A stretch of 40,334 nt of DNA from a virus, in the IMG/VR virus record IMGVR_UViG_3300021961_000224, positions 1 through 40,334 of that record; one strand, written 5' to 3'. The position numbers and the translations under genes were made by a program. Position 1 is the stretch's first letter; every line of letters begins with the position of its first letter. Below the pieces are notes generated by a model. It was given only the letters and a program-made list of their open reading frames with translations. It did no database searches and had not been told where the DNA came from. Of the stretch, positions 171-17,729 are shown in pieces.

Positions 171-1247
171 TTACTCTGTAATTACTTTAGTAATGATCTT
201 CTTGAATAACTCTTTAAGCTGTTGTTCTTCTAGACCGCGTTCACGACGTAAAGTTTCCTCATCGTGGTCTTGTTGATCTTTAGCTAGTTGATCTAAATCT
301 TGTGCGCCTGTCTGCTTGCTTACTAAAGTTTCAACTTCAGGATCTGTACCTGACAGTACTACAAATCTACCTGGGTCTCCTTCCCAGCGTGTAATCCAAT
401 CTGCTTGTGCTTGAGCATCAGCCTCAGTGTCGTAATGTAGTATTAATTTACTTCCCTGTACACTAACAGCGTTTAGAATTCTTCCGGACTTTAAATCCTT
501 AATGTAGAACTTTGTTGGATCGAAGGCATCAGCCTCTTTAAACTTTAAAGGATTCTCACCAGGCAATTCTTCTTCTAAAGGGTCGTCTTTCTTTTCATCC
601 ATTCTTTGACCCATATAATCATTGAAGTCGTCCTCTAGATCGTCCATTGACTGCCAAGTGGCATATTGAGTTGTTCTAGAAGGATCTCCTGATTTAAAGT
701 CTCTCATTACAGAAGCTACATAAGCTTTAGCAACTTCATCCCTAGGATCAGCATCAGCTAAAAAGTCTTTAAGTAGTTGAGTGATTAAAGCTTTGTTTAG
801 CATTACAGGCTCATTACCCATCTCGCTAACTTCTTCTTTAACTACTACCTTCTCCATTTTCTCTCCTGGAGCCTCTAATTGAACGCTATCTTGCTTAACG
901 TAGTATAGTACGTCTTTAGTTAGGTTACTAACAGCTATTGCTTTACATTTCTCATATTGCTCTGGGGTAACGTCTAAAGTACCGTATTTTTTATCAAGCT
1001 CAAATTTGATACCTGTATCTAATACATCAGGAGCAATTGCATCCTCAGGCTTAGCTGTAGAGTATTTAGGTTCTTGCATCTTAGCTTCAGCAATCATACC
1101 TCTATTCTTGAGAATATTTACAGTATCATCGTAGCTATTAACCTTAGAGATAAGGTTAGGTAGTTGCATACTAGCATCTCTAACAAATTGGGATTTCGCG
1201 AAGCTACCTTCGGCGACAGCGTTGTATTTCTCTTGTAATGTTTTCAT
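171..1247 (-). CDS. Putative prohead core/head assembly protein (358 aa)
   Basis: Unrecognised protein between portal and prohead protease, the place held in T4 by the core proteins gp67 and gp68. It is charged and rich in Glu, Asp and Lys, with acidic stretches around residues 200-235 and a Gln/Glu-rich helical C-terminus ending in FKKIITKVITE. The N-terminus MKTLQEKYNAVAEG resembles T4 internal-protein leaders, with a possible gp21-type cut after VAE. The ATG overlaps the upstream stop as ATGA (1244-1247). A head-core or scaffold role is inferred from position and composition only. Confidence 0.6.
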   Translation of the reverse strand: MKTLQEKYNAVAEGSFAKSQFVRDASMQLPNLISKVNSYDDTVNILKNRGMIAEAKMQEPKYSTAKPEDAIAPDVLDTGIKFELDKKYGTLDVTPEQYEKCKAIAVSNLTKDVLYYVKQDSVQLEAPGEKMEKVVVKEEVSEMGNEPVMLNKALITQLLKDFLADADPRDEVAKAYVASVMRDFKSGDPSRTTQYATWQSMDDLEDDFNDYMGQRMDEKKDDPLEEELPGENPLKFKEADAFDPTKFYIKDLKSGRILNAVSVQGSKLILHYDTEADAQAQADWITRWEGDPGRFVVLSGTDPEVETLVSKQTGAQDLDQLAKDQQDHDEETLRRERGLEEQQLKELFKKIITKVITE

Positions 1248-1465
1248 TGTCTGTAGTCTACCATTTTAGTGCTAGAAGGTCTTTTTGGTCGTTGTGTCTT
1301 CTTGAAACCCATTTTAGCCATAAACTTAGTGGCTAAGTTATCGCGATCGTCTTTTGAAAAAGCATTAGGAGTTTGATATGCTCCTACTGCACCAGTAGTG
1401 TTCATTTCTGAGAGTTGTTCTCTAACATACTCTCTTAATAGTTCTGCTACTTCACTTCTTTTCAT
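1244..1465 (-). CDS. Small protein with capsid-targeting-like leader (73 aa)
   Basis: A 73-residue protein coupled on both sides by 4-nt ATGA overlaps. Residues 1-20 (MKRSEVAELLREYVREQLSE) form an amphipathic helix ending in LSE, matching the (L/I)-x-E site cut by T4-type prohead protease. The rest is a Gly/Ala/Thr linker (TTGAVGAYQTPNAF) and a basic tail (KKTQRPKRPSSTK). A small head-internal or core protein is the best guess. No enzymatic motif is visible. Confidence 0.6.
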   Translation of the reverse strand: MKRSEVAELLREYVREQLSEMNTTGAVGAYQTPNAFSKDDRDNLATKFMAKMGFKKTQRPKRPSSTKMVDYRQ

Positions 1466-2313: not shown

Positions 2314-2332
2314 GAGTATGCTATTCTACTAA

Positions 2333-2340
2333 TATAAATA
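2333..2340 (-). promoter_or_regulatory. TATTTATA element (candidate late promoter)
   Basis: The octamer TATTTATA reads on the coding strand in the 31-nt gap between the portal gene and the 283-aa gene, 19 nt before the ATG. It belongs to a set found before many structural genes here. Promoter function is inferred. Confidence 0.45.
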
Positions 2341-2344
2341 TATG

Positions 2345-4228
2345 TTACTGCCCTAAATCTTTAATATTGCTCTCATCAAGCAAACTTGATTGCGGTTCTT
2401 CTTTTTTCTCAAAGATTAAGCTCTTCTTAGGTTTGAAGATATCTTGGTTTTGATAGAACACTGATTTAGTTATAACACTGCTAGCTTGTGTGTCTTCAGC
2501 TACATTAATAGTAGAATCTTCCTCATTATCGTAGCCACCATGCATATCATGTTGACCTAGAGCATCTCTACCAAATGGGCTATTTTGAGTTCCATAAGTA
2601 GAAGCATGTATTTGAGGTCTTCCTTCAGGATTTCCTTCATCATATCCTACAGGCATCTTAGGAGTGTCCATTCCTCTTCTACCGTACATAGAAGCAAGGT
2701 CGTGAGGTGTACCGTAAGTAACTCCAGATTTAGCTGGGTCATTACCTTCGTTTTCAATCTGAGCGACTCTAAAGGCTCTCTTACTGTCTTCTCTGATTAG
2801 ATCTCTCTGTTCGTTGTACTGATCTTCTGATAAGTTAAAGATACTTTCATAGATATAGTCTGTAGAGAACATCTTGCTTTCTACCATCTGAGAGGCTAGA
2901 TCAATCTTTTCTTTCATAAGAGCAATCTTCTCTTGCTCGTAAATGATAGAAGGAGTGGTTAGTTTAAGCTCAAAATTAGTTAAGCTTTCATTCTTATAAC
3001 CTTGAGTATAAAGGTGTACTAAAGCGATCTTAGTTAACTCTGATTCAAGTATGCGCTGGATGCGTTCTACTGTTCTAGCAAAACGAATGTCTTCCGCAGC
3101 CAATGTCGCTTTACCTTGTAAATCGCCTTCATACCCGAAGTATGCTTTAGGTACTTTGAGTGCGGCAAACATTTTGTCTCTAAGGTATTCCACGTCATTT
3201 GTACCGTCGTACTCTAAACCTTTTGTAGTATCGATACGAGTAGTGGCATCTCCACCTCTAACAGGGATGTAGAAATCCTCCATCATATTCTGCATATTGA
3301 AGCGCAGATTGTATTGACCGGTCTGAGGATCAACGTACGGAGTCTTCTTCATACCGTTGATAGTCTTTTGCATAAACTGCTCAACTTCAGCTGGTGGGAT
3401 CTGACCTACGTTAACATAGAATACTCTCTTCTCAGGAGCTCTCATGATACGGTGAATTAACATCGCATCTTCCATAAGAGTTAACTGCTTGAAGATCTTT
3501 CTAGCAGGCTCGATATAAGAACGTCCGTAAGGTAGGTAGTTAGTATCTGATAATAAACGGAAATGCGCTACCTCGTAGTTATCCAGTAGTATTACTTTGT
3601 CCTTATGTCTAGGAATATAGTTTGGATCGGTAGAAGAGGCAATTCCGTCTGGGTCAATAGTAAATTGTACTTTAGCAGGATTGTCTGGATCCTGGCTTTC
3701 ATGACGTACCATACTATATACAGTATAAGGTAGTACGTTGTATACGCCGAACTTTTCAGCAATCTCTAGCTTTAAAAAGAAGTCACCGTACTTAACCATA
3801 TTACGAGTCCAAGACCAGAGGTTAAACTCGATGTTAAGAACGTCGTAAAATAAGTTAGTTAGAATCTTTTTAATATTCTCATCTGATGTCTTAATGGTAA
3901 GGATATCTCCTACATCGTTTTTAAGACATGCTTCGTCGGCTAGAATATCTAATGCAGAAGCGATAATTGGATCTGTATCCATTGCTTCATAATCCGAATA
4001 TAATTGAATTCTTAACGTCTGATAGTTCAGGTTAGGATTAAAAATATTCTTATTGTTGTAGATGTATAGACGAGAGAAACGGTCTACTAAAGAGTTTGTC
4101 TCATAGCGACCGGTACTTTGAATATGGTTAACATCGGCGATTTTCAGCTGATTGCCGCCTACGTTACGAATTACTACGTCGGTAGAGAAAAGTCTCTGTA
4201 ATCTACCAAATAAAGAAGTATCAGCCAT
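2345..4228 (-). CDS. 20: Portal vertex protein, T4 gp20-like (627 aa)
   Basis: Portal protein of the T4 family, which forms the dodecameric head-tail connector and DNA entry/exit channel. Supporting segments are QLYSDYEAMDTDPIIASALD (about residues 77-96), the region TRNMVKYGDFFLKLE, and the long central region with LPYGRSYIEPARKIFKQL and DKMFAALKVPKAYFGYEG, which is typical of T4-type portals. At 627 aa it is about 100 residues longer than T4 gp20 (524 aa). The extra length is a Gly/Asp/Pro-rich C-terminal tail after about residue 495. It lies directly downstream of the terminase, a close T4-like arrangement but without tail-tube and sheath genes in between. Confidence 0.93.
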   Translation of the reverse strand: MADTSLFGRLQRLFSTDVVIRNVGGNQLKIADVNHIQSTGRYETNSLVDRFSRLYIYNNKNIFNPNLNYQTLRIQLYSDYEAMDTDPIIASALDILADEACLKNDVGDILTIKTSDENIKKILTNLFYDVLNIEFNLWSWTRNMVKYGDFFLKLEIAEKFGVYNVLPYTVYSMVRHESQDPDNPAKVQFTIDPDGIASSTDPNYIPRHKDKVILLDNYEVAHFRLLSDTNYLPYGRSYIEPARKIFKQLTLMEDAMLIHRIMRAPEKRVFYVNVGQIPPAEVEQFMQKTINGMKKTPYVDPQTGQYNLRFNMQNMMEDFYIPVRGGDATTRIDTTKGLEYDGTNDVEYLRDKMFAALKVPKAYFGYEGDLQGKATLAAEDIRFARTVERIQRILESELTKIALVHLYTQGYKNESLTNFELKLTTPSIIYEQEKIALMKEKIDLASQMVESKMFSTDYIYESIFNLSEDQYNEQRDLIREDSKRAFRVAQIENEGNDPAKSGVTYGTPHDLASMYGRRGMDTPKMPVGYDEGNPEGRPQIHASTYGTQNSPFGRDALGQHDMHGGYDNEEDSTINVAEDTQASSVITKSVFYQNQDIFKPKKSLIFEKKEEPQSSLLDESNIKDLGQ

Positions 4229-4244
4229 TCAAAAATAGTTTAAT

Positions 4245-4258: not shown

Positions 4259-5833
4259 CTACAGTAACCAAGATATATCCTCTTGGCCATGTGGAGTATC
4301 TATAGTATACGGATTATTTTGCATATTTCCAACTGAATACGCGGCTCCTTGTCTTTGATTTAGGTTTCCCATAGCAGATAAGGATGCTCTTGATAGATCT
4401 ATTCCCTGTTGTCTTAGTCTTAATGCTGTATCTCTGACGTATAGTCCGGTAGCAAAGGCCATTACTAAGTCATCATTATAGCTAGTCTGTGCTTGTGCTT
4501 TACCGTTCTTCCATACAAATACTCTCATCTCTTTTAAGAGTCTCTGAGATTTAATGGTTACAGATCTTTCTCTTACGTAGTCCATCATCTTAGCAATAAC
4601 TAAAGGACGAGTACGCATAGACATTGTAAAGCCAGGAACTAAGTTTCCTCGTTCCATCTTATTCATATAAGTCTCTACAGTATCTTGCTCTGATCTTGAT
4701 GAGTAGTAAAGGTTAGGGTACTCTCTTTCAATAATCTGTTCGATAGTAGACCATCCGATGTTAGCATTTTCTACTACTAACATTGCATTGTTATACTCAG
4801 TCGCTACTCCTACCAACATGTTACCAAATTCCTTAGGAGGTACTTTGCTTTTAAATTCTGCTACTTGAGTAGCTGCTTCAACATCGAATATGTGAAAGGT
4901 AGAATAGTCCTGTCCGTCACCTCTAGCGACGTCGGCTACAACCATATAGGACTTCATATAATCTGGGTATTCCCATATCCAGTAGTCACCTGATACACCT
5001 CTTTTCTCTAGAGGGTCTTGCTGTGCTGTAGTTTCATAGAAGATTAGATCTTCTGGTTCAAATACTGTATCACCGGATGATAAGAAGTCACAGTCACATT
5101 CCTGTGCTGCCATTCTAGGACCCAGGTCATTGTCTTGTTGGTCTCTCCATGACTGATTTCTCTCAGGGTGCACAGTCCAAGGTAGTTTAATAGGAACAAA
5201 GGAGTTTTCACCTGTTTCTGCTTTTTCCCAGGTCTGGTGGAACCAGTTACCAATTCCGTTAGGAGTTGATAGAGCCATACATTGACCACCGGTTGCAAGG
5301 GTCTGTTGAGCGGCTGCAAACGTTTCATCAATATTATCAATGAACGCAGCCTCATCAATTAAGAGTAAAGATACAGCTTCTGAACGAGCAGCATCTGAGT
5401 TAGATGATTTAGCTGCTATTCTAGAGCCGTTAGTAAGTCTTAGTGAGAGTTTATTCTTCTCTACTGCTTTTAATTTTAACCAGCTAGGAAGCTGATCGTA
5501 CATAAATTGAACCTTGGTTACAAGGTTACGTGCAGTAGATTGTGTGGTTGCAAGAGCTAGTACGTTCTTGTCTTTGTGGAAGAGCATCAACCATAATGAA
5601 TAGCCTGCTGCTAAAGTTGAGATACCTAACTGCCTTGACTTAAGAGTAATTAGGTACTGATGATCTCTGAATAAATAAAGTACTTTGTCCTGGAATGGGT
5701 AAAGGTTGAATAGTATACGTCCTCTTTGAGGGTGCTGAATATAGCAGTACTTACGCATAAAATATGCCGGGTCTTTGGCACACTTTGCGTATTCTTGTAT
5801 TACTATCTGCTTAACATTCTGCTGTTCACTCAT
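4259..5833 (-). CDS. 17: Terminase large subunit, T4 gp17-like (524 aa)
   Basis: DNA-packaging motor ATPase and nuclease. Visible in order: adenine-binding region YPFQDKVL (about 45-52), Walker A-like SRQLGIST (66-73), Walker B LLLIDEAAF (about 157-164), coupling motif ALSTPNG (187-193), and the RNase H-like nuclease starting at VVADVARGDGQDYS (D301) and continuing with LVVENANIGW and a final YNDDLVMAFA. The length is somewhat shorter than T4 gp17 (610 aa). Its ATG overlaps the stop of the upstream small membrane-protein gene as ATGA. No small terminase is recognisable in the window. Confidence 0.95.
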   Translation of the reverse strand: MSEQQNVKQIVIQEYAKCAKDPAYFMRKYCYIQHPQRGRILFNLYPFQDKVLYLFRDHQYLITLKSRQLGISTLAAGYSLWLMLFHKDKNVLALATTQSTARNLVTKVQFMYDQLPSWLKLKAVEKNKLSLRLTNGSRIAAKSSNSDAARSEAVSLLLIDEAAFIDNIDETFAAAQQTLATGGQCMALSTPNGIGNWFHQTWEKAETGENSFVPIKLPWTVHPERNQSWRDQQDNDLGPRMAAQECDCDFLSSGDTVFEPEDLIFYETTAQQDPLEKRGVSGDYWIWEYPDYMKSYMVVADVARGDGQDYSTFHIFDVEAATQVAEFKSKVPPKEFGNMLVGVATEYNNAMLVVENANIGWSTIEQIIEREYPNLYYSSRSEQDTVETYMNKMERGNLVPGFTMSMRTRPLVIAKMMDYVRERSVTIKSQRLLKEMRVFVWKNGKAQAQTSYNDDLVMAFATGLYVRDTALRLRQQGIDLSRASLSAMGNLNQRQGAAYSVGNMQNNPYTIDTPHGQEDISWLL

Positions 5834-6249
5834 AATAATAGTAGTAGTACTGTTGCTAGAGCGCCTCCAGCTGCCCCGAAGGTAACACCTGACCAGAATT
5901 TAGACTTTTTTTCTTTTTCTAACACATCTACTTTTTTATCACATAAATCAATCTGTTTTTCTTTTTCAGCAAAAAGGTTATCGTAGCTGTTTAGTCTCTG
6001 TTGTAGGTTGTTGATCTGAGTTTTATTGGTTTCGGTAAGCTTTTTATAATCTTCAATGCTCTTTTCTAAGCTAGTTTTTTCTTTAATACAAAAGTCACCA
6101 GCTTCTAAATCAGCAATAACCAGCCTGGTCATGTGAGCAGGAAGACATACTAGGGTATCTCCGTTAACGACCGTAACGCTTTGCGAAGTAGCCGGGAAGG
6201 CTATCAACAGAAAGCCTGCTAAGCTCAGCAATTTTTTTATTGTATGCAT
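5830..6249 (-). CDS. Secreted coiled-coil protein with C-terminal anchor; possible outer spanin partner (139 aa)
   Basis: Residues 1-23 form a signal peptide (hydrophobic core LLSLAGFLLIAFPATSQ) with likely cleavage before Q, a pattern common in Bacteroidota. A long coiled coil follows (about 55-115), then GVTFGAAGGALATVLLLLL, a C-terminal membrane anchor. The gene begins inside the 3' end of the preceding membrane coiled-coil gene (86-nt overlap in another frame), as in Rz/Rz1 spanin pairs. No lipobox Cys is evident near the signal cleavage site, so it is not a classic Rz1 lipoprotein. The function assignment is inference. Confidence 0.55.
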   Translation of the reverse strand: MHTIKKLLSLAGFLLIAFPATSQSVTVVNGDTLVCLPAHMTRLVIADLEAGDFCIKEKTSLEKSIEDYKKLTETNKTQINNLQQRLNSYDNLFAEKEKQIDLCDKKVDVLEKEKKSKFWSGVTFGAAGGALATVLLLLL

Positions 6250-6529: not shown

Positions 6530-7714
6530 TTACTTTCTTACATAGTCACACATAATGTGAGATGGATAAAGCTTACCTTGCTTATTTCTAATATTCAGTT
6601 TGAAGGTATAGTATTCTGATTCGAATTTAATATCAATTCTCTTTCCTTTACCTGTATCACCGCCATATAAGATTGTAATACCTCCTTGCGGAGTAGCAGC
6701 TTTCTTAGCAAACTCATCAGTAACTTCAAAGAAAGAGTACTTTCCTTTACCTCCTTTTACCATCCAGTAACCGCTTCCGATACCTGAACGAACTAGGTTA
6801 TACAGTTTATCTTGATCGTAATCTGTGACAGTTTCATGGTATTGAGTAAAGTCTGTTTTACCGTACTCGTTAAATATTTTACAGAAGATCTCGTTATCAA
6901 TACCAAATGTCTCTAATAAGGATGCTCCTTGAGCATTATCAATCTTACCGTCTTGAAAATCTTCCGGAGTAAATATTTTAGCGACACCTGAGTTAAAGAA
7001 TGTTAACGTGTTACCAAACTTAAGAGATAGGTAGATTGGAGAACCGTCTTTATCTAAAGTAAGATCAGTTAATGTGGCTGCAATAGACTCTCCTGAGTGG
7101 CTAATAATAGGGCCGTTGTCGGTAAATACTAGGGGTCTTGGCTTATTCTCACCACCTTCCGGTACAACTTTAAAGTTATCAGGAGATAAGTTAAATTGAT
7201 CTACAATCTCTTTAGTCAGATCTGGGTGTTGGAATTCTTTTGCGCCTTCTTTGTAGTTGTTAAGATCCTGTTCTAGTTCTTTCTCAAAAGAAAATCCTTT
7301 AGAAGCAGCTCCTCTACCTCCTCTTGATCCTTCACCAAAGTTAATAGTCAAGCCATTCCATTTGATGCTTTTCATAGGATCTACCTCTACTCCTAATTTA
7401 TCTTGTAAGTACTCGATAAAGCGATTATCTCTACTTAATGAGCGAGAGATCTTAGGAAAGTTTGGTTTGTTAGGATCGATGGCGATTGGATCTTCCATCT
7501 TAAGATTAGGGTACTCTTTAACGATTGTTAAAAGAGCTTCTAACTTATCATCTTCTAGTTCATCGACTGATTTAGGAAAGAATGTATAAGCTTCTTCAAG
7601 ATCGATACCTAGTGCTTCCCAAAGGATGTCTAGGTCTTCTTGAGAGTTGATATCAGGATAACCTTTGGCAGTTCTCCATGACCATTCTGTAAGTATCTTG
7701 TCTATGAGATTCAT
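6530..7714 (-). CDS. Putative PD-(D/E)XK-like nuclease with capsid-targeting-like leader (394 aa)
   Basis: It begins MNLIDKILTEW, a ten-residue leader like that of T4 Alt, with a possible prohead protease cut after LTE. The conserved-looking core is a glycine-rich GSRGGRGAASKGFSFEKELE (about 129-148) followed by SHSGESIAATLTDLTL (D217) and IYLSLKFGNTLTFFNSGV (226-243). The order E144...D217...S-L-K232 recalls restriction-endonuclease-like folds, with Ser in place of the usual Asp/Glu of (D/E)xK. The nuclease call is therefore tentative. Its start overlaps the upstream stop as TAATG. It could be a packaged protein acting on host DNA. Confidence 0.5.
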   Translation of the reverse strand: MNLIDKILTEWSWRTAKGYPDINSQEDLDILWEALGIDLEEAYTFFPKSVDELEDDKLEALLTIVKEYPNLKMEDPIAIDPNKPNFPKISRSLSRDNRFIEYLQDKLGVEVDPMKSIKWNGLTINFGEGSRGGRGAASKGFSFEKELEQDLNNYKEGAKEFQHPDLTKEIVDQFNLSPDNFKVVPEGGENKPRPLVFTDNGPIISHSGESIAATLTDLTLDKDGSPIYLSLKFGNTLTFFNSGVAKIFTPEDFQDGKIDNAQGASLLETFGIDNEIFCKIFNEYGKTDFTQYHETVTDYDQDKLYNLVRSGIGSGYWMVKGGKGKYSFFEVTDEFAKKAATPQGGITILYGGDTGKGKRIDIKFESEYYTFKLNIRNKQGKLYPSHIMCDYVRK

Positions 7715-8583
7715 TATACTCCTGCAAATACATCTTCTTCACCTCCTGCTGGTGTTTCTTCGGCTCCTGCTTCAGTACCGGCTTCAGCTCCAGCTTCTGC
7801 TCCTGATGCGCCTCCTTCTTCTCCAGGAAACTCTCCACCACCGCCTTCTACTCCACCGAAGATATCTTCTCCAGATACAGCATCCATTCCACTTTGAATT
7901 GGACCGGAAGCAAGCATGTCTGTGATCTTATCCAGGCATTGCTGATATTCGGCTAGATTCTGTAGGAAATATCTTTTACCTTCTACTGTAGCTTCAAAGC
8001 CTTTGCCCATCCATTTTAGCAGTATGTCTTGTCCATTCTTAAACTCTACTTTAAATGTAGATGGCTTAGGAGACATCCAGCCTACCTTTTCTACAAACTC
8101 CTCAAAATCGGGAGTCATTAGGTGTACTAATGTCTTCTTTAATGTAGGGAACTTAGCTAGGATGTCAGCTGTAGCATCAGGAGCTTCCTCTTCAGCAACT
8201 TCTCCTGAATCAGCAAATTCTGTATCAGGTGTTTCTTCGGTCGGTTCTTCAGTAGGTACTTCTTCTTCGTCGCCTTCTGCTTCTTTAATGTACCCTTTAA
8301 CTACTGTTCTTGGGTTAGCGATATCAAGACCTTTCTGAAGGAATGCTACTCTTTTTTCGATTACTCCTTTCATTAACTGAAGGGTTTCTAAATCAAATTC
8401 ATCTTCAACAGCATCTAAGAACTCCTGAGTTTCTAATTCGTTAAGAAGAGTTTTAAGTTGAACTTCACTCATCTTACAGGCTTTCTCGTACATAGCTTGT
8501 GCTGGAGTAGAGATCATTCCCTGCTCGGCTAAAAGCTCGTAGTAAGCTTCTTCAATAATATTTTTTAGATCTTGAATCTTCAT
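7714..8583 (-). CDS. Acidic virion-associated candidate with targeting-like leader (289 aa)
   Basis: Residues 1-20 (MKIQDLKNIIEEAYYELLAE) are an amphipathic helix ending in LAE, followed by a helical region, a very acidic linker (about 105-140, Glu/Pro/Thr rich), a small folded segment (about 145-220), and a Gly/Ala/Glu low-complexity tail to the end. Such acidic, low-complexity proteins with cleavable leaders are typical of phage head-core or internal proteins. No enzyme motif is seen. TAATG junctions link it to both neighbours. Confidence 0.55.
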   Translation of the reverse strand: MKIQDLKNIIEEAYYELLAEQGMISTPAQAMYEKACKMSEVQLKTLLNELETQEFLDAVEDEFDLETLQLMKGVIEKRVAFLQKGLDIANPRTVVKGYIKEAEGDEEEVPTEEPTEETPDTEFADSGEVAEEEAPDATADILAKFPTLKKTLVHLMTPDFEEFVEKVGWMSPKPSTFKVEFKNGQDILLKWMGKGFEATVEGKRYFLQNLAEYQQCLDKITDMLASGPIQSGMDAVSGEDIFGGVEGGGGEFPGEEGGASGAEAGAEAGTEAGAEETPAGGEEDVFAGV

Positions 8584-9404
8584 TACTTCTTATTGCTGCA
8601 ATGCTTAGGACTGCTTTTTGAAATGTAAGGTTTTCTACACTCTTGAGAGCTTTCGTGAACTCTTCCGCATCTTCCGCAGCATGATACACCTTCTGTGAGT
8701 GTCTCACCGATAATTGAACTAACCATACCTTTAATATGATTTGATCCAAGTGTTTTTTTAACTTCTGGTTTGCTGATATACTGCTTTAATGCTGCAAGAT
8801 CAAGTTTATAGTCTTGCTTATCGTCCATTTTCTTTTCGATCTTATTGACCTTAACTTTAATGATGTCATGCATCTTTTGAGCTTCAGGAGTAAAGTGTGT
8901 ACGTTTACCGCCTGTTTCTTTTTCAGCTGCTTTAAGATCTTTTTTAGATGGCTGCTTATCATCAATATCTGTATCATAAACATCATCATCTTCCATAAGA
9001 GGTTCTTCTTCAGAAGGAGCTTCAGTAGAAGCTAAATACTGCTCTCCTTCTAGATAATGCTTAACAGTATCAATATGTTCAAAAGCTACAGTTAATTTAC
9101 TTTGAACCCAAGCATCTAATTGCTGACCGTCTTGGATCATTCTTAAAAGCTCGATACAGTACTTGGCAGTATTGTGTAACTGTACTTTAGCCATATCTGA
9201 TTCATCGTTAGGATTCTCAGCGTGATCTTCTTCCATCGGCTCAATCTTAGCACCAGCTTTCTTAAGCTCGATTTCTTCTTCCGGGGATACTGCTTGAGCA
9301 ATAGATCCGCCTTTTGGTCCGATTACTTTCTTTACTGTCTCAGCTTCTGCTAATACTTGCTGAATAGCTTCTAAGATGATCTCTTTCTTAAAGGATATGG
9401 CCAT
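8583..9404 (-). CDS. Targeting-like leader, helical domain and C-terminal Cys cluster (273 aa)
   Basis: MAISFKKEIILEAIQQVLAE (1-20) is a helical leader with a possible LAE|A cleavage site. Residues about 73-119 (KVQLHNTAKYCIELLRMIQD, then LDAWVQSKLTVAFEHIDTV) form a helical domain of a type I associate with T4-like structural proteins. An acidic linker and a Lys-rich segment follow. The last 35 residues contain SCCGRCGRVHESSQEC and a final PKHC, which could bind zinc. A TATTTATA element lies 16 nt upstream of the ATG, suggesting it heads a late transcript. Confidence 0.55.
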   Translation of the reverse strand: MAISFKKEIILEAIQQVLAEAETVKKVIGPKGGSIAQAVSPEEEIELKKAGAKIEPMEEDHAENPNDESDMAKVQLHNTAKYCIELLRMIQDGQQLDAWVQSKLTVAFEHIDTVKHYLEGEQYLASTEAPSEEEPLMEDDDVYDTDIDDKQPSKKDLKAAEKETGGKRTHFTPEAQKMHDIIKVKVNKIEKKMDDKQDYKLDLAALKQYISKPEVKKTLGSNHIKGMVSSIIGETLTEGVSCCGRCGRVHESSQECRKPYISKSSPKHCSNKK

Positions 9405-9430: not shown

Positions 9431-9913
9431 TTACTGACAGTGATAGTTTAAATACCTTTGTAATGCTTTAGCATATGTGGTTCCTTTGTCTTTAAGCTTA
9501 CTTCTTTCAGCTCTCACCTTAGAACATGATAAGCTACCTAATCTTTTCTTTAGAATGCCAGGATTCATAGGATCATGAGGACCTTCTTCTAATCCTGCTT
9601 TAAGTAACTTAGAGTAGTAGTATGGATCTTCAGCTAGATGCTGTAGAGCAATCTTAGTTGCTTCTCTTCGATCATCTGTATGTTCTAACTCTACTCCGAT
9701 ACCGGCTGCTAACTGTAACATATTAGTAGTGTCTTCGTCAGCAGGCGCTACAACTTCTTTATTAATATGAATGGCAGCTAACTGCTTTTCAGCTGCTGCT
9801 TTAGTGTCGTGAGTACCGAGTCTTTCACCACCGTGTTTAGGATAGACAACATACTTACCATCTACCTTGCGGATCATTTCTTTAATAATACTTACTAATT
9901 CACTCTTCTTCAT
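9431..9913 (-). CDS. Phage protein with DUF5661-like segment (160 aa)
   Basis: The N-terminus MKKSELVSIIKEMIRKVDGK has the leader-like helix but no clear (L/I)-x-E site. A short KYVVYPKHGGERLGTHDTKA module follows (20-39), then KAAAEKQLAAIHINKE. Residues about 71-103, with GVELEHTDD, ATKIALQHLAEDP and YYYSKL, resemble the DUF5661 pattern (E-HT...IA..HL.E.P.YY..L) known from phage proteins. The C-terminus is basic with two Cys. It is probably a minor structural or internal protein, and the function is unknown. Confidence 0.6.
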   Translation of the reverse strand: MKKSELVSIIKEMIRKVDGKYVVYPKHGGERLGTHDTKAAAEKQLAAIHINKEVVAPADEDTTNMLQLAAGIGVELEHTDDRREATKIALQHLAEDPYYYSKLLKAGLEEGPHDPMNPGILKKRLGSLSCSKVRAERSKLKDKGTTYAKALQRYLNYHCQ

Positions 9914-9943: not shown

Positions 9944-10048
9944 TTATATTTCACCTCCTAATCTCCCTGACGCAGTTCTTCTTCGGATACCTGAGGTAGG
10001 AAGCTTATCAGCTATTCTTGTTGATTTCTTTGCCTGCTTTAACTGCAT
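9944..10048 (-). CDS. Possible small basic protein (34 aa)
   Basis: A 34-codon reading frame starts at an ATG inside the 3' end of the 64-aa gene and fills the otherwise empty gap before the 160-aa gene. The product (MQLKQAKKSTRIADKLPTSG, then IRRRTASGRLGGEI) is basic and has a protein-like composition. Its stop TAA overlaps an ATG as TAATG, although that ATG opens only a three-codon frame (9933-9944). The 41-nt overlap with the upstream gene and the tiny size keep confidence low. Confidence 0.35.
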   Translation of the reverse strand: MQLKQAKKSTRIADKLPTSGIRRRTASGRLGGEI

Positions 10049-10202
10049 CTTTGAAAGCCTTGGAGTTAGGGTGAGATGGTTTCTCACCTCTAGCTCTCTT
10101 AGCTCTAATGTTAGCCCATAAGCCAGGCTTCTCCTCAGTAAGCACCTCTCTAATGAGGTCTCTCATAAAAGCGTGCATTGCTGCTTTATCTGCCTTGGCC
10201 AC
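10008..10202 (-). CDS. Small protein with capsid-targeting-like leader, GTG start (64 aa)
   Basis: The frame begins with GTG at 10202 (coding strand CCGTGGCCAAG). Residues 4-23 form the helix ADKAAMHAFMRDLIREVLTE, with a candidate prohead cut after LTE. A short basic segment (GLWANIRAKRARGEKPSHPN) and a Lys-rich tail follow. The GLWxNIxAKRxRGExP layout is one I associate with small proteins of T4-like environmental phages, without a known role. It overlaps the 47-aa gene upstream by 17 nt. Confidence 0.6.
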   Translation of the reverse strand: MAKADKAAMHAFMRDLIREVLTEEKPGLWANIRAKRARGEKPSHPNSKAFKDAVKAGKEINKNS

Positions 10203-10884: not shown

Positions 10885-11715
10885 TTAGAACTTAAATGCT
10901 TTCTTTATTTTCTTACCAGTATTTTTAGCACCACCAACTGCTGCGTTACCAACATCTTTAGCTCCACCCACAACTGCGTTACCCGCGTTGTTTACAGGTT
11001 CTGATACTTTATCTACTACCTTAGTAGTTTCTTTAGCTACTGTGTTTGCTGTATCAACGACTGCTTCTTGAGCTGGTTTAGTGTCAACGCTAACTGAAGC
11101 ATCTACATCAACCCCGGCTAATAAGGCAACTTTACCATCTACTCCAACGGTTGCAACACCATCATCCATAGTAGCGCCTCCGCCTACTTCAGCTCCGGCT
11201 TGTACTCCGATTGATACTCCAGCACCAACTTCAGCACCATTACCATTTTCATCGTATGTGCTATTAGATGCGCCTACTCCTACTGATGCTCCAGCCATTG
11301 CTCCTGCATGTCCTTCTGCACCATCCATTCCTACTTGTCCACTTGCACCAACATATGCTTTAGCTTCTGCTCCAGCATGTACTTCGGTTGTGTTAGTTAC
11401 TCCACCGTACTCTACTGAGTTAGATGCTCCTACTTCAGCTGATGCTCCTACTTCTGCATGTGCATCAACATATGCGTTTCTACCATCCCAACCAGCTTCA
11501 GTTGTTGCTTCAGCATGAGCTTCAGCTTCAGCATGAGCTTCTTGTGAAATGGTTACATCACCAATTTGGTTTGTATTTTCTACTCCAGCATGTACTTCTG
11601 CACTTGCTTCTACACCAGCACTTACTGATGTGTTTGTAACTTCAGTACCAGCAGATGCTCCTGCTGATGCTCCGGCGTTATCGTTACCTACCGATTTGTT
11701 TACTTCTTCACTCAT
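10885..11715 (-). CDS. Ala/Gly/Val-rich repetitive protein (276 aa)
   Basis: Low-complexity protein built of degenerate repeats such as EVHAGAEAKAYVGASGQVG, AEVGASAEVGASNS, AHAEAEAHAEA and AGVSIGVQAGAEVGGG across residues 10-205. A more polar Val/Asp/Thr segment follows, then two copies of a VGGAKxxGNA unit and a basic end KKIKKAFKF. There is no signal peptide or membrane helix. The alternating small residues suggest a beta-solenoid or fibrous structure. It lies between a single-domain tail-collar gene and a cupin-like gene. It could be a fibre or internal filler protein. Codon use looks like its neighbours. Confidence 0.6.
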   Translation of the reverse strand: MSEEVNKSVGNDNAGASAGASAGTEVTNTSVSAGVEASAEVHAGVENTNQIGDVTISQEAHAEAEAHAEATTEAGWDGRNAYVDAHAEVGASAEVGASNSVEYGGVTNTTEVHAGAEAKAYVGASGQVGMDGAEGHAGAMAGASVGVGASNSTYDENGNGAEVGAGVSIGVQAGAEVGGGATMDDGVATVGVDGKVALLAGVDVDASVSVDTKPAQEAVVDTANTVAKETTKVVDKVSEPVNNAGNAVVGGAKDVGNAAVGGAKNTGKKIKKAFKF

Positions 11716-12226: not shown

Positions 12227-13549
12227 TTACCAGTATCCTCCAAAGCTTGATTTGAGGCCTAGTAAGCTTGCATAACGAGGAAGTCTGCATGACCAATAAC
12301 CTGCTTTAGTCTTATCCTTTTTAGTAGGACAGTTATGTCTATCTGAGAAGGCTTTACGAGCTTTAGCGTTGTTGATCTTAGCTGTCAGTCCGCCTTTAGC
12401 GTCACCAAAGTTAACTACGATTACATTACCCTTAGCGTTCTTAGTGTATACCTTATATTTTTTAGGGCCTGGGCTTCTCATTGGTTTATTGAGTTTTACC
12501 TCTTTACCTTTGTATTTAGCTTCATCTAGTTTACCGGCTTGTAAAGTAGTAAACCCGTTACGCTTTAGCCATTTAGCTGCTTCTTCAGCATTAGGTGCCT
12601 CTCCATCGTAATCACCAGTGTCAAAATAAAAACCACCATCAGCAGTTTTGTAAACATCTACGTCACCTTCAGGTCCGCTATAGATAGCGATATGGGCAGG
12701 AGAGTTAAATGTTGCTTCTTCTACTCTTTTACCGTAAGCATACTTAACTCCAGTAGCTTTTGGTTGCTCTAATCTCTTAATAAGGTCATCAACGATTCGC
12801 TCTAGATGTTTGGTAGATCCTGCTCCTTGAGCTGCTTTTTTAATCTTCATGATTAAAGCTTGCTTTTCGAAGTCTTTTAACCCAGCCTCATCAATCATCG
12901 TAAGAATCTCTTGTAGAGGTGTATCTTGAGCTTCACCTGTAATATCTACTACCCACATGTCCGGGTCTGGATCTTCTGGTAGAATGGAAGCTAGTACATC
13001 AGCGCCAGCAATAAGCTTATAACTTACTTGATTACCGTTCATATACTTTAATGCTGTTGGCATTTGAACTTGATCAGTATCTGAGAATGTTGTAGTGCCT
13101 TGGGGTAGCTCACCTAGGAATGACTTAATATCCGAGTATTTAGTTTGGTATCCTAATCCTCCAGCTGCTTTAGCTTTACCTGCTAAATCCATCCATCTCT
13201 CTTCACCCATCTTCATTACTAGAGGTTCTTGTGAGGCTTCTCTCCAGGAGGTAGCCGGTGAAGGAATTACCATTGCAATCTCATTTAGCAGCGGGAAGTC
13301 TAAAGGCACTATTTGACCGTTATACTCTCCATATGTACCTACTTCTGTTTCAAATAGGAGCTCCATGTCTTCCAAGCATAAATCAGTGAGCATGCCTTCG
13401 TTCATTAAAAGACGAGCCTGATTGATGGTTTTGAAGTATTCTTCTGAACCTGGGCGGAATACGTTTTTATATAGAGGAGTCCTGGTCTCTAGGTGATATT
13501 TGAGACCTTCTGTTAGTACTCCGGTAAGCTTAGATTCTGTTAGAAGCAT
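12227..13549 (-). CDS. Conserved phage protein with targeting-like leader and C-terminal Cys/His domain (440 aa)
   Basis: It starts MLLTESKLTGVLTEG, with a candidate cleavage after LTE (residue 14). Residues about 20-90 (VFRPGSEEYFKTINQARLLM, then LETEVGTYGEYNGQIVPLDF in outline) look like a conserved structural module. The last 90 residues form a second module: KGKEVKLNKP, VVNFGDAKGG, ARKAFSDRHNCPTKK, GYWSCRLPRY. The RHxC...YWSCR spacing may bind metal. Both modules are familiar from environmental T4-like phages without known function. TATTTATA lies 11 nt upstream, so it may start a late transcript. Confidence 0.55.
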   Translation of the reverse strand: MLLTESKLTGVLTEGLKYHLETRTPLYKNVFRPGSEEYFKTINQARLLMNEGMLTDLCLEDMELLFETEVGTYGEYNGQIVPLDFPLLNEIAMVIPSPATSWREASQEPLVMKMGEERWMDLAGKAKAAGGLGYQTKYSDIKSFLGELPQGTTTFSDTDQVQMPTALKYMNGNQVSYKLIAGADVLASILPEDPDPDMWVVDITGEAQDTPLQEILTMIDEAGLKDFEKQALIMKIKKAAQGAGSTKHLERIVDDLIKRLEQPKATGVKYAYGKRVEEATFNSPAHIAIYSGPEGDVDVYKTADGGFYFDTGDYDGEAPNAEEAAKWLKRNGFTTLQAGKLDEAKYKGKEVKLNKPMRSPGPKKYKVYTKNAKGNVIVVNFGDAKGGLTAKINNAKARKAFSDRHNCPTKKDKTKAGYWSCRLPRYASLLGLKSSFGGYW

Positions 13550-13569: not shown

Positions 13570-14139
13570 CTATTCCATGTGCTCCTTAAGATGCTTTAGG
13601 TAGTCTGCCATTCCTTTAAGTAGTTTCTGGTTCTGATTGTCATTACTGTTCCAGTCTTCCATTACTCCGTCTTCGGTAACAAACGACATAGATTCATTAA
13701 TCTGATCTTGTACCCATTGTTCTAATCCTGCTGCCCAGGCTTGCATATTTCCTTGCATCATCTGCTTTTCATACTGCTCATACAAGCCAGCCTTGCGTAG
13801 GTTAGCTTCCATATCTACTACGCAATCAAAGCACATTTTATGTATTTTGTACATCTTTTGAGCTAGATGGTGCTTCATTGATCCAGCACATTGTGGGCAA
13901 GTTAGAGGAGTTTGAGCAGCTTTCTTAGCGGCATCTAACTTAGTTATATTTTGTTTAACACCGTTCTTGATAGTCCACGTTCTACCATCTTCTTCCCAGA
14001 TATCGCCTTCGCTATGCTTCTCTCTCTTTTTCTCATAACCTGTTCCAGTTACGGTACGAGAGGTGTAATCCTTATTTACAAGGTTTCTAACTCGGTTTAC
14101 TGCTTTAGAATCAAATTCCTTCTTCAGTTGACTTTCCAT
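13570..14139 (-). CDS. Zinc-ribbon-like conserved phage protein (189 aa)
   Basis: The N-terminal basic segment KAVNRVRNLVNKDYTSRT is followed by SEGDIWEEDGRTWTIKNGVK (43-62) and two CxxC knuckles, CPQC (81-84) and CFDC (103-106), forming a likely zinc-binding site. The C-terminal half is helical and acidic. The product is probably a nucleic-acid-binding or structural accessory protein. It overlaps the HAD gene by 29 nt. There is no enzyme signature. Confidence 0.6.
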   Translation of the reverse strand: MESQLKKEFDSKAVNRVRNLVNKDYTSRTVTGTGYEKKREKHSEGDIWEEDGRTWTIKNGVKQNITKLDAAKKAAQTPLTCPQCAGSMKHHLAQKMYKIHKMCFDCVVDMEANLRKAGLYEQYEKQMMQGNMQAWAAGLEQWVQDQINESMSFVTEDGVMEDWNSNDNQNQKLLKGMADYLKHLKEHME

Positions 14140-14740
14140 ATAACTTTTTTATTCTTTTTATAACTTCCGATGGATCTCCGTTCTTAGGGTGGTGAATACC
14201 AATTCCGCCTGCATCCTGCCAGCGGTCAATAATATCTCTTCTATCGTCAATTAAGATAGGTTCTAATCCTTTTGATACGTCTTCTTCTGCTACTTGTTGC
14301 TTGTAGGATGAATACTTAAATATAATACCTTGCGGTGAAGGAGTCAAATGTGATTTAACCCAAGATCTTTTACCGATTCTTGAGATCATATTTCTGGATG
14401 GAGACGTAAGTAGGGTTGGTTTATATTCGCTAATTACATTCCATAATTGTTGACCTCCTGGTGTGAATTCCATTTCTGCCCAGAACTTCTTGCCGCAAAT
14501 CTCATCAATAAACTTCCAAAATTCAGGTCCTCCAAACTTAGATTCAAACTCACTAGGGGTATTAATGCCCTCTAGTTCTTCGGTTCTATAGTGCTTTCCG
14601 CCGTAGTTACTGTCGTTGAGAAGCTTCATAAACTGCTGATCAAAGTCACAAAGGACTCCGTCCATATCGCAGTATAGCTTAAATTTAACAGTGGGGTTCT
14701 GCTCTTCTTCTGTAAGTAGTAAATCTGCTAACTTTCCCAT
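14111..14740 (-). CDS. HAD-family phosphatase, 5'(3')-nucleotidase-like, with targeting-like leader (209 aa)
   Basis: The ATG at 14740 is chosen over the upstream one at 14791 because it follows the previous stop by 2 nt and gives MGKLADLLLTEEEQ, a leader with an LTE site like other genes here. HAD motifs are clear: motif I YCDMDGVLCDFD (D25, D27), motif II LLTSPS (about 111-115), a Lys in KYSSYKQQ, and motif III PILIDDRRD (D165, D166). This is the layout of small deoxyribonucleotidases that dephosphorylate nucleotides. The phosphatase call is firm; the substrate is inferred. Confidence 0.8.
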   Translation of the reverse strand: MGKLADLLLTEEEQNPTVKFKLYCDMDGVLCDFDQQFMKLLNDSNYGGKHYRTEELEGINTPSEFESKFGGPEFWKFIDEICGKKFWAEMEFTPGGQQLWNVISEYKPTLLTSPSRNMISRIGKRSWVKSHLTPSPQGIIFKYSSYKQQVAEEDVSKGLEPILIDDRRDIIDRWQDAGGIGIHHPKNGDPSEVIKRIKKLYGKSTEEGI

Positions 14741-14742
14741 TC

Positions 14743-16794
14743 TTATTTTAATTCCGGTATTCCACCTAGTTGCGGTATTCTTGATTTCCACTTGCTATAG
14801 ATCTGCTTACTGTTACCTTGAGTAATAATTCCATCACCTACTAAGTCAGTTAGGTAAGTATCTACAACGTCTTGAAAATCTTTCTTTTCGTATTTTGCCT
14901 TAGCATATAAGCCTTGAATATTAGCATCTACTTCTTTTGGCAGTAGGTAGTATTTGTACCAAATTTCAGGGTTTTTGCGAATCTCTCTTCTTCTAGCTTC
15001 GTCTTTTCTCATCCACTTATCGGGCTTGACCTGGTCACCGCTTTGAGTTAGATGTTCAGTCTCGTGACGGATTAGATCAGTAAGAGTTGGTTGAATGGTT
15101 TGAAGCATATTAGTACCGTCAGCAGGATTAAATGCTAAGAGAATGTCAATCTCTCCTTCGTCGGATCCTGCTTCTCCATCAATATGATACTTACCAGGCT
15201 TTACTTCATCTGTTAAAGCAAACTTAAGAGATACTCCTACCGTAGTTGGTGTACCTTTCTCGCTTTTACTTTCAAATGTACCTAAGTATGCAGTTTGATA
15301 TTCGTTATAGAGCATAGCTCCTAGAGGAGACATTCCATACTTTTCAGCAAACTCTCTATCTTTTTCTGAAGGCTCTCTTTTGGTTTTTACGTTATAACCT
15401 TTAAATTTACCTCCTGATAAAAGTGTGTTGAGAGCAGCATTTACTGCCTTTCTGATATCAACTACTATAGAGCGGTACTTAGTACCTTCTTTAACCGGGT
15501 TGTAGCCTGAACCGTAAGGAGCAGCTTTGCCGTCTTGAGGATTATTAGCTTCAGACATCTTACATCTGTCTTCCCATTGACGGAATAGCATGCTTCCGCC
15601 CATGTGGGCTTCCTGTTCAATCTCTCTTAATACGTCATCTTCTTCAGTATTCTGAGTGGTGAAGACTGGTAAGCGATCTTCTAGGTTTTGCTGGTGATGA
15701 ATGAGCTCATGACAGAAGGAGCGTAGAACATCTTTAGGGTGACGACCTGTTACATAAAGGACAATCTCTTGCGTATCGGGCTGATAATATCCTGTCTTAC
15801 CAAAGAGGTTCGCAGCATTTTCTTCGTCATGTCTGATTTTAATATCAGGGATAGGTACTACTGTCATGCCTTGCTCCATACAGTATTCTAAGATAGAAGC
15901 GATATGAGGAGCAAATTCAAACTGACCTATAGTCTCTTCTGGGAGGAGTCTTTGATTCGGAGTTCCGTCGTAGTTACGTCCGTCTTTTTCTTTATCAAAG
16001 TAAGGTAGAGATACTGAGATGTGATCTCCTCTAAACTCTACATTAAAGTCCGAAGATATAACGTTACGGATTAGTTCAGTGTAGTCCTGCAGGCGCTGTC
16101 TCTCTTTAGATGGGAGTACAGCAATTGGTGCTGCCGGAGAGCCTTTTGTGACTTCTTTAATAGGTCCCATTGGAGCGTTCATCCACTCTTTATCCTCTTC
16201 AGTATAAAAGAAGTTTGCAAATACTTCATCGATGGCATCAGCCATTTTCTTTTCTGGTGTGTTATTCATCGCTTTAGATAGAATATCAAATATATGATCT
16301 TTCTGCTTAACTACCGCAGGAAGATACTTAAAAAATTCTTCTTTATCTCCTGCTAAAAGAGCCTTACGAGCGTTTGTACCGCTCATGCCGCCGTCAGGAG
16401 TTTGAACAACCTTAACCTCTAAATTTGGGTATTTTGCTTGATTCTTTCTGAAGTATGAAGTACGGTCTTGAATATCTCCTAGATCGTCTTCTCTACCTTC
16501 TCTAGCTCCTAAAATCCAAACTACTTGGTCGTCTGGGTTGTTTGAAGCATATGAGTAAATCTCTCCGATAGGTGGTTTAGATGCTTTTACAATCTCAACA
16601 TTACCCGGGAGGTACTTTTGAAATATTTTCCAAACTTCATAAGAAGTATCTTGATCAATACCATCTCTTACTTCTTTACCTACGAATACAATGTATTTGT
16701 CCGCATCAGGAACTTGGTTGGTAGCTGTTTCAACTACTAGAAAATGTCCTGCGGTTGGTGGTTTAAATCCTCCTCCAAATACTGCTACTTTCAT
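14743..16794 (-). CDS. Nucleotidyltransferase fused to two HExxH metallopeptidase-like domains (683 aa)
   Basis: Residues 1-170 form an NMNAT/cytidylyltransferase-like domain: VAVFGGGFKPPTAGHF carries the (H/T)xGH motif and GMSGTNARKAL the SxTxxR motif. Such enzymes transfer AMP or CMP to nucleotide-like substrates. Residues about 235-412 contain LRSFCHELIHHQQNLEDRL (HELIH 362-366) with EIEQEAH (391-397) downstream as a possible third ligand. Residues about 440-683 contain LTDLIRHETEHLTQSGD (HETEH 577-581) with LPKEVDANIQG (E621) downstream. Both look like zincin active sites. It is coupled by ATGA to the kinase gene. The fusion is unusual and the combined function is unknown. Confidence 0.75.
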   Translation of the reverse strand: MKVAVFGGGFKPPTAGHFLVVETATNQVPDADKYIVFVGKEVRDGIDQDTSYEVWKIFQKYLPGNVEIVKASKPPIGEIYSYASNNPDDQVVWILGAREGREDDLGDIQDRTSYFRKNQAKYPNLEVKVVQTPDGGMSGTNARKALLAGDKEEFFKYLPAVVKQKDHIFDILSKAMNNTPEKKMADAIDEVFANFFYTEEDKEWMNAPMGPIKEVTKGSPAAPIAVLPSKERQRLQDYTELIRNVISSDFNVEFRGDHISVSLPYFDKEKDGRNYDGTPNQRLLPEETIGQFEFAPHIASILEYCMEQGMTVVPIPDIKIRHDEENAANLFGKTGYYQPDTQEIVLYVTGRHPKDVLRSFCHELIHHQQNLEDRLPVFTTQNTEEDDVLREIEQEAHMGGSMLFRQWEDRCKMSEANNPQDGKAAPYGSGYNPVKEGTKYRSIVVDIRKAVNAALNTLLSGGKFKGYNVKTKREPSEKDREFAEKYGMSPLGAMLYNEYQTAYLGTFESKSEKGTPTTVGVSLKFALTDEVKPGKYHIDGEAGSDEGEIDILLAFNPADGTNMLQTIQPTLTDLIRHETEHLTQSGDQVKPDKWMRKDEARRREIRKNPEIWYKYYLLPKEVDANIQGLYAKAKYEKKDFQDVVDTYLTDLVGDGIITQGNSKQIYSKWKSRIPQLGGIPELK

Positions 16795-17729
16795 GCAAAG
16801 AACTTCTTAGTTTTGGAAATTACTTGAGCGTCTGTTGTACCTTTAGTTACTAAGTCGTATTGATCGCTATTGATAACTTTAGCAATTCTATCAAGTACCT
16901 CCTTGTATTTCTTCTCAGCTGAGTCTCTATTGCGTTCAATGGAGGCAACCTTCTTTTTCATTGAGTCAAACGTAGGGCCTTGACCTTTCTTCTCCCAAGT
17001 AGCCATAAAGTGCTTCTTAAGATTCTTAGTCATATCTTCGTCGCTATCGTCTAATCGAAGAGGTTTTACTAGTTCTTCGTAGGCAGCTAAGGCAGCTTCA
17101 TCTTCAATCTCAAAAGGCTTTCTAAACGATGATTTCAGTTCTCCTAGAGAATCAATATACTCTAAAATACCTTCACCACCTCTCTTGGCAGCATGATTAA
17201 ACTTACGAACCTCAGCATCATAAGAGCCTCCCATCATATTAGGTACGATGACGAAATTATCCTTTAAAAGTTTGCTATAATAGCCAATTAATTCAAAGCT
17301 TCTCATCCAAGTATCAAATACTGCAATCTTAGGAATATTACGTTCTCTTTCAAAATTCTTAAGAAGAGAGATGGCCGGGTGAGTGATCATCATAATCATC
17401 ATCACATCGTAACCTTTTGCTCTGATATCGTTTACAGTCTTGTCTGGGTTGTTAGCTGTTGTATCCCATACAAATGGTTCACCTTCGTAAGCATGGTCAG
17501 AAGCTGCTTTATCGGTCATAGACGAAGCCATAGACAGATTACTGTATGCAGGACTCTTTTTATCCTCTACATACTGATCAGGATTAAAGATCGTAATATC
17601 CTCAGGAATAGCACCAGCTCTCTTTAGAGTATTGACCATATGAGTTTTTCCGGTACCAGCACCGCCGGCCATAATCAACGCCTTTGGTCGGGCTTTTGCT
17701 TCAGATAAAAGAGCTTCCATTAATTTCAT
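16791..17729 (-). CDS. P-loop kinase, zeta-toxin-like, with targeting-like leader (312 aa)
   Basis: It starts MKLMEALLSEAKARPKALIM. The first ten residues resemble the T4 Alt leader and end in LSE|A. Walker A GGAGTGKT (22-29) follows directly, with FNPDQY (48-53) and PFVWDTTANN (85-94) in the positions seen in zeta-toxin and polynucleotide-kinase-like P-loop enzymes. The C-terminal third is Lys-rich and coiled. The substrate is unknown; nucleotide, nucleic acid or UDP-sugar kinase are options. A TATTTATA element lies within the last codons of the preceding gene, 25 nt before this ATG. Confidence 0.75.
   Translation of the reverse strand: MKLMEALLSEAKARPKALIMAGGAGTGKTHMVNTLKRAGAIPEDITIFNPDQYVEDKKSPAYSNLSMASSMTDKAASDHAYEGEPFVWDTTANNPDKTVNDIRAKGYDVMMIMMITHPAISLLKNFERERNIPKIAVFDTWMRSFELIGYYSKLLKDNFVIVPNMMGGSYDAEVRKFNHAAKRGGEGILEYIDSLGELKSSFRKPFEIEDEAALAAYEELVKPLRLDDSDEDMTKNLKKHFMATWEKKGQGPTFDSMKKKVASIERNRDSAEKKYKEVLDRIAKVINSDQYDLVTKGTTDAQVISKTKKFFA

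Follow-up and report, generated by a model that had tools for sequence, protein, structure and literature searches.

Candidate capsid-targeting leaders on unrelated proteins of a T4-like phage and its relatives

The DNA examined here, IMG/VR virus record IMGVR_UViG_3300021961_000224 (40,334 bases, analysed at full length and called the window below), derives from a T4-like phage with its genes on the minus strand. Flavobacterium phage immuto and Microcystis phage Mel-JY01 have terminases that share 74% and 52% identity, respectively, with the terminase of the window. Read from right to left, the window holds genes for the tail and baseplate, then those for primase and exonuclease and a mostly unannotated block (17729-6530); next come the genes for the terminase, the portal and three small head proteins, and a gp21-like protease gene starts near the left edge. 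The tail/baseplate and primase/exonuclease roles were assigned by homology to the immuto annotation. The subject of this work is a set of short N-terminal leaders ending in hydrophobic-x-Glu (hxE), which a preliminary description of this DNA had proposed to be a modular packaging tag on injected cargo proteins. All ten N-termini listed in that description were found on minus-strand genes, and the gp21-like gene placed at the left edge is present as well (phrog_207, E=2.9e-7, window 168-1). The features are collected in Table 1, and an arrow within a sequence denotes the predicted cut.

The leaders of the window are of one kind, but do not form one family. The HAD protein starts at ATG 14740 (MGKLADLLLTE), nested within a longer GTG open reading frame (ORF), while the start of the 64-aa protein is ambiguous, being either GTG 10202 or an ATG 8 codons downstream. 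The T4 rule [LI]-x-E is found at residues 5-24 in 12/22 genes in 171-17729 compared with 7/23 rightward (p=0.09), the form [LIVMF][STA]E in 9/22 compared with 2/23 (p=0.014), and the core hxxhhxE in 8/22 compared with 3/24 (p=0.06). Because these window-only statistics are weak, the idea was tested on sequence outside that covered by the preliminary description.

Enrichment was probed using the genome of immuto, for which 237 annotated genes were translated (210 encoding at least 60 aa), with two genes crossing the edges of the fetched stretches omitted. The [LI]-x-E motif occurs at residues 5-24 in 20/26 head/cargo-region proteins compared with 37/184 elsewhere (p=1.8e-8); after shuffling of the region N-termini, a mean of 6.8 and a maximum of 13 carried the motif, and it is present in 24% of internal windows. 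Similarly, the core hxxhhxE lies within the first 26 residues of 15/26 region proteins and of 20/184 in the rest of the genome; five further windows of 26 residues, read on along the region proteins, hold only 0, 1, 1, 1 and 0 occurrences. The region borders were drawn after the N-termini were known, and the controls were not blind; three alternative borders, two of which are unbroken stretches including the primase and exonuclease, gave 21/28, 16/22 and 22/30 (p from 1.2e-8 to 3e-6).

The portability of the leaders was examined in a sample of 80 terminase-bearing contig loci, the window, and parts of the immuto and Mel-JY01 genomes, which together yielded 130 unrelated-body genes. Among 8333 pairs lacking body similarity (blastp E above 1), the N-terminal score was 60 or more in 109, while no pair reached this score in the segments 31-58, 46-73 and 61-88 or after shuffling. 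Most of the 109 pairs belong to two tags, designated C (NFDLRKFLxENKLTxNSxLLxE) and A (MNLIDKxIxEW..KGYPD...FGxxLxE). Immuto carries both of these, together with a further tag, E, and an MKKSxL type. The expectation that leaders would be conserved while bodies vary is therefore strongly borne out in relatives, where tags A, C and E are found on unrelated bodies.

A scan of the contig collection for tag C (FDLKKFLVENKLTxNSxLLxE), in which the query fixed residues 1-13 only, returned at least 120 contig stretches; the counts that follow for tags C and E are among the matches listed. The motif of tag C was present in 148 in-frame ORFs and lies 2-4 residues past a start in 140 of them, and the 136 bodies fall into at least 53 clusters that show no BLAST similarity to one another at E 0.01, although remote kinship is possible. 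Conservation extends beyond the query through N15, S16, K/R17 and L19 to a Glu, such that hydrophobic (or A/T)-x-E stands at position 20 or 21 in 48/53 representatives, and it falls to background from position 23; in the FDLKKFLVENKLT family, conservation thus ends at hxE. Over codons 14-21 there are 2578 synonymous and 2422 identical pairs (the residue differs in 6024). Synonymous variation is thus about as frequent as identity, indicating that the peptide is what is kept. A convincing Pfam domain was identified in only 1/53 tag-C representatives (HD, 2.1e-6), at least 47/53 had no Pfam match at E 0.01, and searches of PHROGs also gave almost nothing.

The corresponding scan for the N-terminal form of tag E (RMQxLAGIITE) gave at least 120 matches, of which 118 stretches were read. 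These contain 135 in-frame ORFs, 127 with the tag at the N-terminus and a length of at least 60 aa, forming at least 69 body clusters. A second hxE (LNE) is present in about half of the 69 clusters (L in 33, E in 36), and conservation is gone beyond it. When the C and E bodies are pooled, at least 112 clusters result: 43 occur only with C, 61 only with E and 8 with either tag, and one body can therefore bear different tags.

Among the tag-C records tried, phrog_207 was detected in 19/40, including 10/10 above 45 kb (a cut-off chosen afterwards), and in these ten records 19/19 tag sites lie within ~22 kb of the protease gene. Furthermore, hxE is kept in aligned relatives of the major capsid protein (MCP; e.g. 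IVSE↓A, 21/21), the protease (31/31) and the predicted scaffold (24/24 at one site). The predicted scaffold is the gene just before MCP, labelled from gene order, and it has no head-protein match in PHROGs. In the loci compared, RMQKLAGII is the extreme C-terminus of this protein in 34/34 homologues with a closed 3' end, and 34/35 C-terminal copies of the tag E peptide are scaffold homologues. Across 32 distinct contexts, the peptide is C-terminal in 27 (one non-scaffold), N-terminal in 5 and internal in none; one cargo protein that it opens is gp83 of immuto (MKKQILSEQFRRMQKLAGIITE↓S). A tag copied from the end of the scaffold itself has the form expected of a signal for loading into the head, where it would act by docking. 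In relatives of the 73-aa protein (window 1244-1465), the segment after the leader (e.g. TSATGTGASFTPGTGAQYATP) resembles the predicted mature MCP start (ASSTGTGGSFSAGQGEQWAGV).

The homologues of the listed proteins were compared using, among the matches listed, up to 18 distinct N-termini per protein. In the kinase, hxE precedes the P-loop domain by a few residues in 11/11 distinct full N-termini, as judged by eye and with three incomplete ORFs dropped. From phage to phage the leader itself varies (MKLMEALLSE↓A, MKLSQLILE↓A, MIKLLDLIQE↓Q, MIPFILKE↓G and MKSFKEFNE↓G). The 289-, 273-, 73-, 358- and 440-aa proteins and the HAD protein mostly keep hxE where the N-terminus is homologous, and relatives of the 358-aa protein mostly start M[RK]TLQEKYNA[VI][LQ]E↓G. 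For the 289-, 273-, 160- and 440-aa proteins, the similarity of several relatives is confined to an inner or C-terminal domain, and these relatives start differently. For most of the proteins originally listed, the proposal thus withstands the check for homologues that lack the leader or the site. The leader of the 142-aa protein of the baseplate cluster is unsupported, because a single homologue, from immuto, was found among the loci compared. Searches for related loci returned little (five loci with the kinase, one with the S-CREM2 cytidylyltransferase).

The 683-aa protein adjoining the kinase combines a cytidyltransferase N-terminal part, matching the families phrog_395/3041, whose cyanophage members were detected in virions by mass spectrometry, with two HExxH motifs and sub-threshold matches to DUF6782/DUF6647. 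Its layout resembles that of polyvalent proteins, with a putative metallopeptidase part; polyvalent proteins are described as injected multidomain proteins with several enzymatic domains that include metallopeptidases (PMC5512222). A kinase, a cytidyltransferase and a 5'-deoxyribonucleotidase are also grouped in Pelagibacter phage HTVC008M (Kyanoviridae, 19953-25109 of the locus), whose host belongs to another phylum, and there the kinase and some of its neighbours have short hxE leaders.

The gene for the 394-aa protein lies upstream of the terminase, with two small genes between. In relatives, eight body clusters occupy this position behind one N-terminal module of ~41 residues, and hhalign comparison of these clusters gave a probability below 4% in 26/28 pairs (27.5% and 79.1% in the others). 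This module, tag A, is fixed to residue 41-43, where hxE is present in 37/43 distinct N-termini; the site at E10 also fits in 37/43. Consequently, the leader first described for this protein, MNLIDKILTE↓W, agrees with the relatives as far as E10, while the tag itself probably ends at E41. Conservation of the module as far as E41/43 speaks against E10 as the only cut, both sites being kept in 37/43. The position looks like a diversifying effector locus, and its fixed N-terminus, constant position and unrelated bodies recall polymorphic effectors. One clade of seven has invariant G161, E164, D182, E191 and K193 (G..E..D..ExK), a pattern that we take to resemble the PD-(D/E)XK nuclease motif. AlphaFold models of the 394-aa protein and of a relative with an unrelated body (mean pLDDT 73.9 and 68.2) found no PDB match below E 0.001, and sequence profiles of the body gave nothing useful. 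Nuclease activity is not claimed for this body because the reading has a motif only and neither a fold nor a profile match. Between the terminase and this gene (5830-6505) are two overlapping small genes that, by eye, form a candidate spanin pair, one with a signal-peptide-like start and the other with a membrane-anchor-like start.

Published virion proteomes of cyanophages provide a further source of evidence. For S-CREM2 (PMC10665884), non-structural and hypothetical proteins detected by mass spectrometry (MS) were compared with undetected proteins in two fetched stretches, which hold 15/28 of the detected proteins (the other 13 lie outside); detected structural proteins were excluded from both sides. 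The [LI].E motif is present at residues 5-24 of 9/15 detected compared with 20/98 undetected proteins (p=0.0026). The leaders of detected enzymes include those of a SAM hydrolase (MKDFDSFLEE), an APH kinase (MKRFDAFLTE) and a cytidylyltransferase (MKNFSSFLTE↓A). The virion-listed Cas9 of this phage (7704-10313 of the locus) has RFASFMAE↓A at residues 18-25, and it therefore seems possible that Cas9 is injected. Cytidylyltransferases have also been detected in virions of S-SM1 (PMC3037559) and S-SCSM1 (PMC9602691), where they start with MKKFSAFLNE↓A and MKSFLQFLKE↓A, respectively. A scan of viral contigs with MKxFxxFLTEA returned at least 120 ORFs, and 114 of those listed reach 60 aa or more. 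Among them, the 112 comparable bodies form at least 14 unrelated groups, the largest of which (94 members) seems, by eye, to be the cyanophage protein to which the S-SCSM1 NMNAT belongs.

Table 1. Leader-bearing and context genes of the window; all positions refer to the 40,334-base record.
Feature	Position	Strand	Basis and leader
gp21-like prohead protease start, continues past window edge	1..168	-	phrog_207 E=2.9e-7; N-terminus MANVLVEYTPFKSILRESK, with hxE there (ILRE↓S)
358-aa predicted prohead core protein	171..1247	-	Role by position; leader MKTLQEKYNAVAE↓G at 1209-1247
73-aa protein	1244..1465	-	Leader MKRSEVAELLREYVREQLSE↓M at 1406-1465
gp20-like portal, context gene without leader	2345..4228	-	Body cluster of immuto gp074, annotated gp20-like
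Terminase large subunit, context gene without leader	4259..5833	-	74% identity to immuto terminase
394-aa protein	6530..7714	-	Tag module probably residues 1-41 (7592-7714), MNLIDKILTE...IDLEE↓A; invariant D..SxK in body, a nuclease candidate from its motif only
289-aa acidic protein	7714..8583	-	Leader MKIQDLKNIIEEAYYELLAE↓Q at 8524-8583
273-aa protein	8583..9404	-	Leader MAISFKKEIILEAIQQVLAE↓A at 9345-9404
160-aa protein, absent from the preliminary list	9431..9913	-	Leader-like MKKSELVSIIKE at 9878-9913
64-aa basic protein, net charge +7	10008..10202	-	Leader ...MRDLIREVLTE↓E
440-aa protein	12227..13549	-	Leader MLLTESKLTGVLTE↓G at 13508-13549
HAD-type 5'-deoxyribonucleotidase	14111..14740	-	phrog_2643 E=7.8e-21; leader MGKLADLLLTE↓E at 14708-14740
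683-aa cytidyltransferase-type protein, putative metallopeptidase part, without leader	14743..16794	-	phrog_3041 E=1.9e-7
Zeta-toxin-type P-loop kinase	16791..17729	-	PF06414 E=7.4e-13; leader MKLMEALLSE↓A at 17700-17729
142-aa protein, baseplate cluster	32530..32958	-	Leader-like MKASEFKKLIKEAVKEAIREELTE↓V; membership unproven

In the unannotated block, a gene for a 276-aa Ala/Gly/Glu-rich protein (10885-11715) shares 82.6% DNA identity with immuto across 666 bases and is the sole close DNA match for window positions 1-25000 in the phage collection searched. This match points either to recent exchange or to strong constraint.

Leader presence in the window, enrichment in immuto, tag portability, proximity to the protease gene, kept hxE sites and tagged proteins among those detected by MS in cyanophage virions are all observed. 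Very likely, the leaders are capsid-targeting propeptides of T4 type that mark injected cargo and are removed by the gp21-like protease. The original proposal of a modular packaging tag is thereby supported, and packaging, cleavage and injection in the window phage, as well as the role of each cargo protein, are what we infer from sequence. It is proposed that, as the prohead assembles, the N-terminal amphipathic peptide would attach the protein that bears it to the scaffold core or to the inner shell. The gp21-like prohead protease, encoded nearby, would then cut after hydrophobic-x-Glu and release the mature cargo within the head. Finally, the cargo, including the Zeta-type kinase, the 5'-deoxyribonucleotidase, small basic proteins and the product of the diversifying gene by the terminase, would leave the head together with the DNA and enter the next host. 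A takeover of nucleotide and host metabolism is suggested by the kinase and nucleotidase.

Several results weigh against this account. The virion MS evidence comes from cyanophages and not from the window phage or immuto, and the S-CREM2 authors note that virion enzymes might be carry-over (PMC10665884). The virion proteins of S-SCSM1 (60-95 kb) are not enriched in either [LI].E (4/8 compared with 13/40, p=0.29) or the core motif (1/8 compared with 4/40, p=0.62). Tags C and E were not found in the window in a six-frame check, and the 683-aa cytidyltransferase has no leader in the window or in immuto. In the tag E scan, the first hxE belonged to the query, and the protease was detected in only 7/13 tag-E records tried (5/8 above 45 kb, 4/4 above 100 kb); this link is weaker than that of tag C, and the records may be fragments. 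In immuto, the strict form [LIVMF][STA]E shows mild enrichment (6/26 compared with 11/184, p=0.0097), while the enrichment confined to the window is only suggestive (p 0.014-0.09), hxE being a loose motif.

The borderline window-only tests are also what would be anticipated if the leaders reflected chance or a general N-terminal bias (start composition, translation signals) combined with a loose motif, and in immuto [LI].E or hydrophobic-x-E does occur in 24-48% of same-size internal windows. Composition does not account for the portability of the tags and their sharp boundary, however, and the absence of high-scoring pairs after shuffling, together with the synonymous codon variation, largely refutes this explanation, which we regard as extremely improbable. 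A different possibility is that the leaders dock to the scaffold or shell uncut, with hxE serving as a helix cap or docking face. This would agree with the conservation of tag A past E10 and with the account of T4 in a review, in which a change of the last residue stops processing but not targeting. Nevertheless, the conservation of tag C stops at the Glu, and MCP and the protease keep hxE sites of their own, such that uncut docking appears unlikely.

The leaders might instead route proteins elsewhere than the head, for example to the tail lumen or baseplate, the membrane or the replication site. The leader-like 142-aa protein in the baseplate cluster, with its immuto homologue, and a few immuto leaders outside the head region (1803, 24569, 25061) are compatible with such routing, but the leaders cluster around the terminase, the protease and MCP. 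Furthermore, tag E is identical to the C-terminus of the predicted scaffold, and the cyanophage enzymes were detected by MS in virions, making a destination outside the head very unlikely. Capsid targeting with cleavage thus remains the preferred account of the leaders. More broadly, it is fairly probable that aquatic T4-superfamily phages use exchangeable head-loading tags, resembling export signals and in one case copied from the scaffold, to load hundreds of otherwise unclassifiable proteins, and that these tags are a sequence key to the injected proteome, to which a diversifying effector gene by the terminase, with a possible nuclease part, would also contribute.

Injected proteins are usually learnt by proteomics of cultured phage, whereas a short peptide would predict them from sequence, uncultured phages included. 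The tags flag many unannotated proteins as candidates for early host takeover or anti-defence. They also bear on the doubt, voiced for S-CREM2 and S-SCSM1, over whether virion enzymes are truly packaged (PMC10665884, PMC9602691), as several of these enzymes are tagged. Scaffold mimicry would, in addition, suggest the working mode of a tag.

Comparison with known systems begins with the head proteins of other phages. In phiKZ and SPN3US, many head proteins are likewise cut by a gp21-related protease after a short Glu-ending motif, but the phiKZ motif is S/A-x-E, and no common short tag family on unrelated bodies is described in the accessible accounts. The first 30 residues of P1 DarB are enough to bring a reporter into heads; however, the P1 authors saw no consensus among the Dar N-termini, in contrast to the consensus families found here. 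The virion enzymes of cyanomyoviruses share the cytidyltransferase families (phrog_395/3041) and the kind of leader, although the window cytidyltransferase is without a leader and the adjoining kinase has one; leaders are unmentioned in the available text of the cyanophage papers.

The closest likeness is to T4 IPI-III and Alt, which share the short N-terminal peptide, the L/I-x-E cut rule, the unrelated bodies and a protease gene in the head cluster, and the cyanophage MKxFxxF[L/I]xE resembles the T4 leaders quoted in the preliminary description. In T4 IPIII, the first ten residues suffice, with targeting depending mainly on residues 4 and 7, processing on residues 8 and 10, and the cut following L/I-x-E; the capsid-targeting sequence has been suggested as a route by which T4-like phages add proteins (PMC9026906). 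The T-even internal proteins have only the leader in common and block type IV restriction (PMC12373910), and T4 internal proteins are described in a review as small and basic. The 64- and 73-aa proteins of the window are small and basic as well. The present system differs from T4 in having several tag families within a single phage (immuto), in tags of ~10-43 residues, with at least 112 body clusters in two families, in the prominence of enzymes, and in the likeness of one tag to the C-terminal end of the predicted scaffold. Searches of the open-access PMC literature found no description of tags like these except in T-even, phiKZ-like and P1 phages. The principle is known, while four aspects appear to be new within the literature searched: how many tag families there are, how broad the cargo is, the mimicry of the scaffold and the connection with the virion enzymes of cyanophages.

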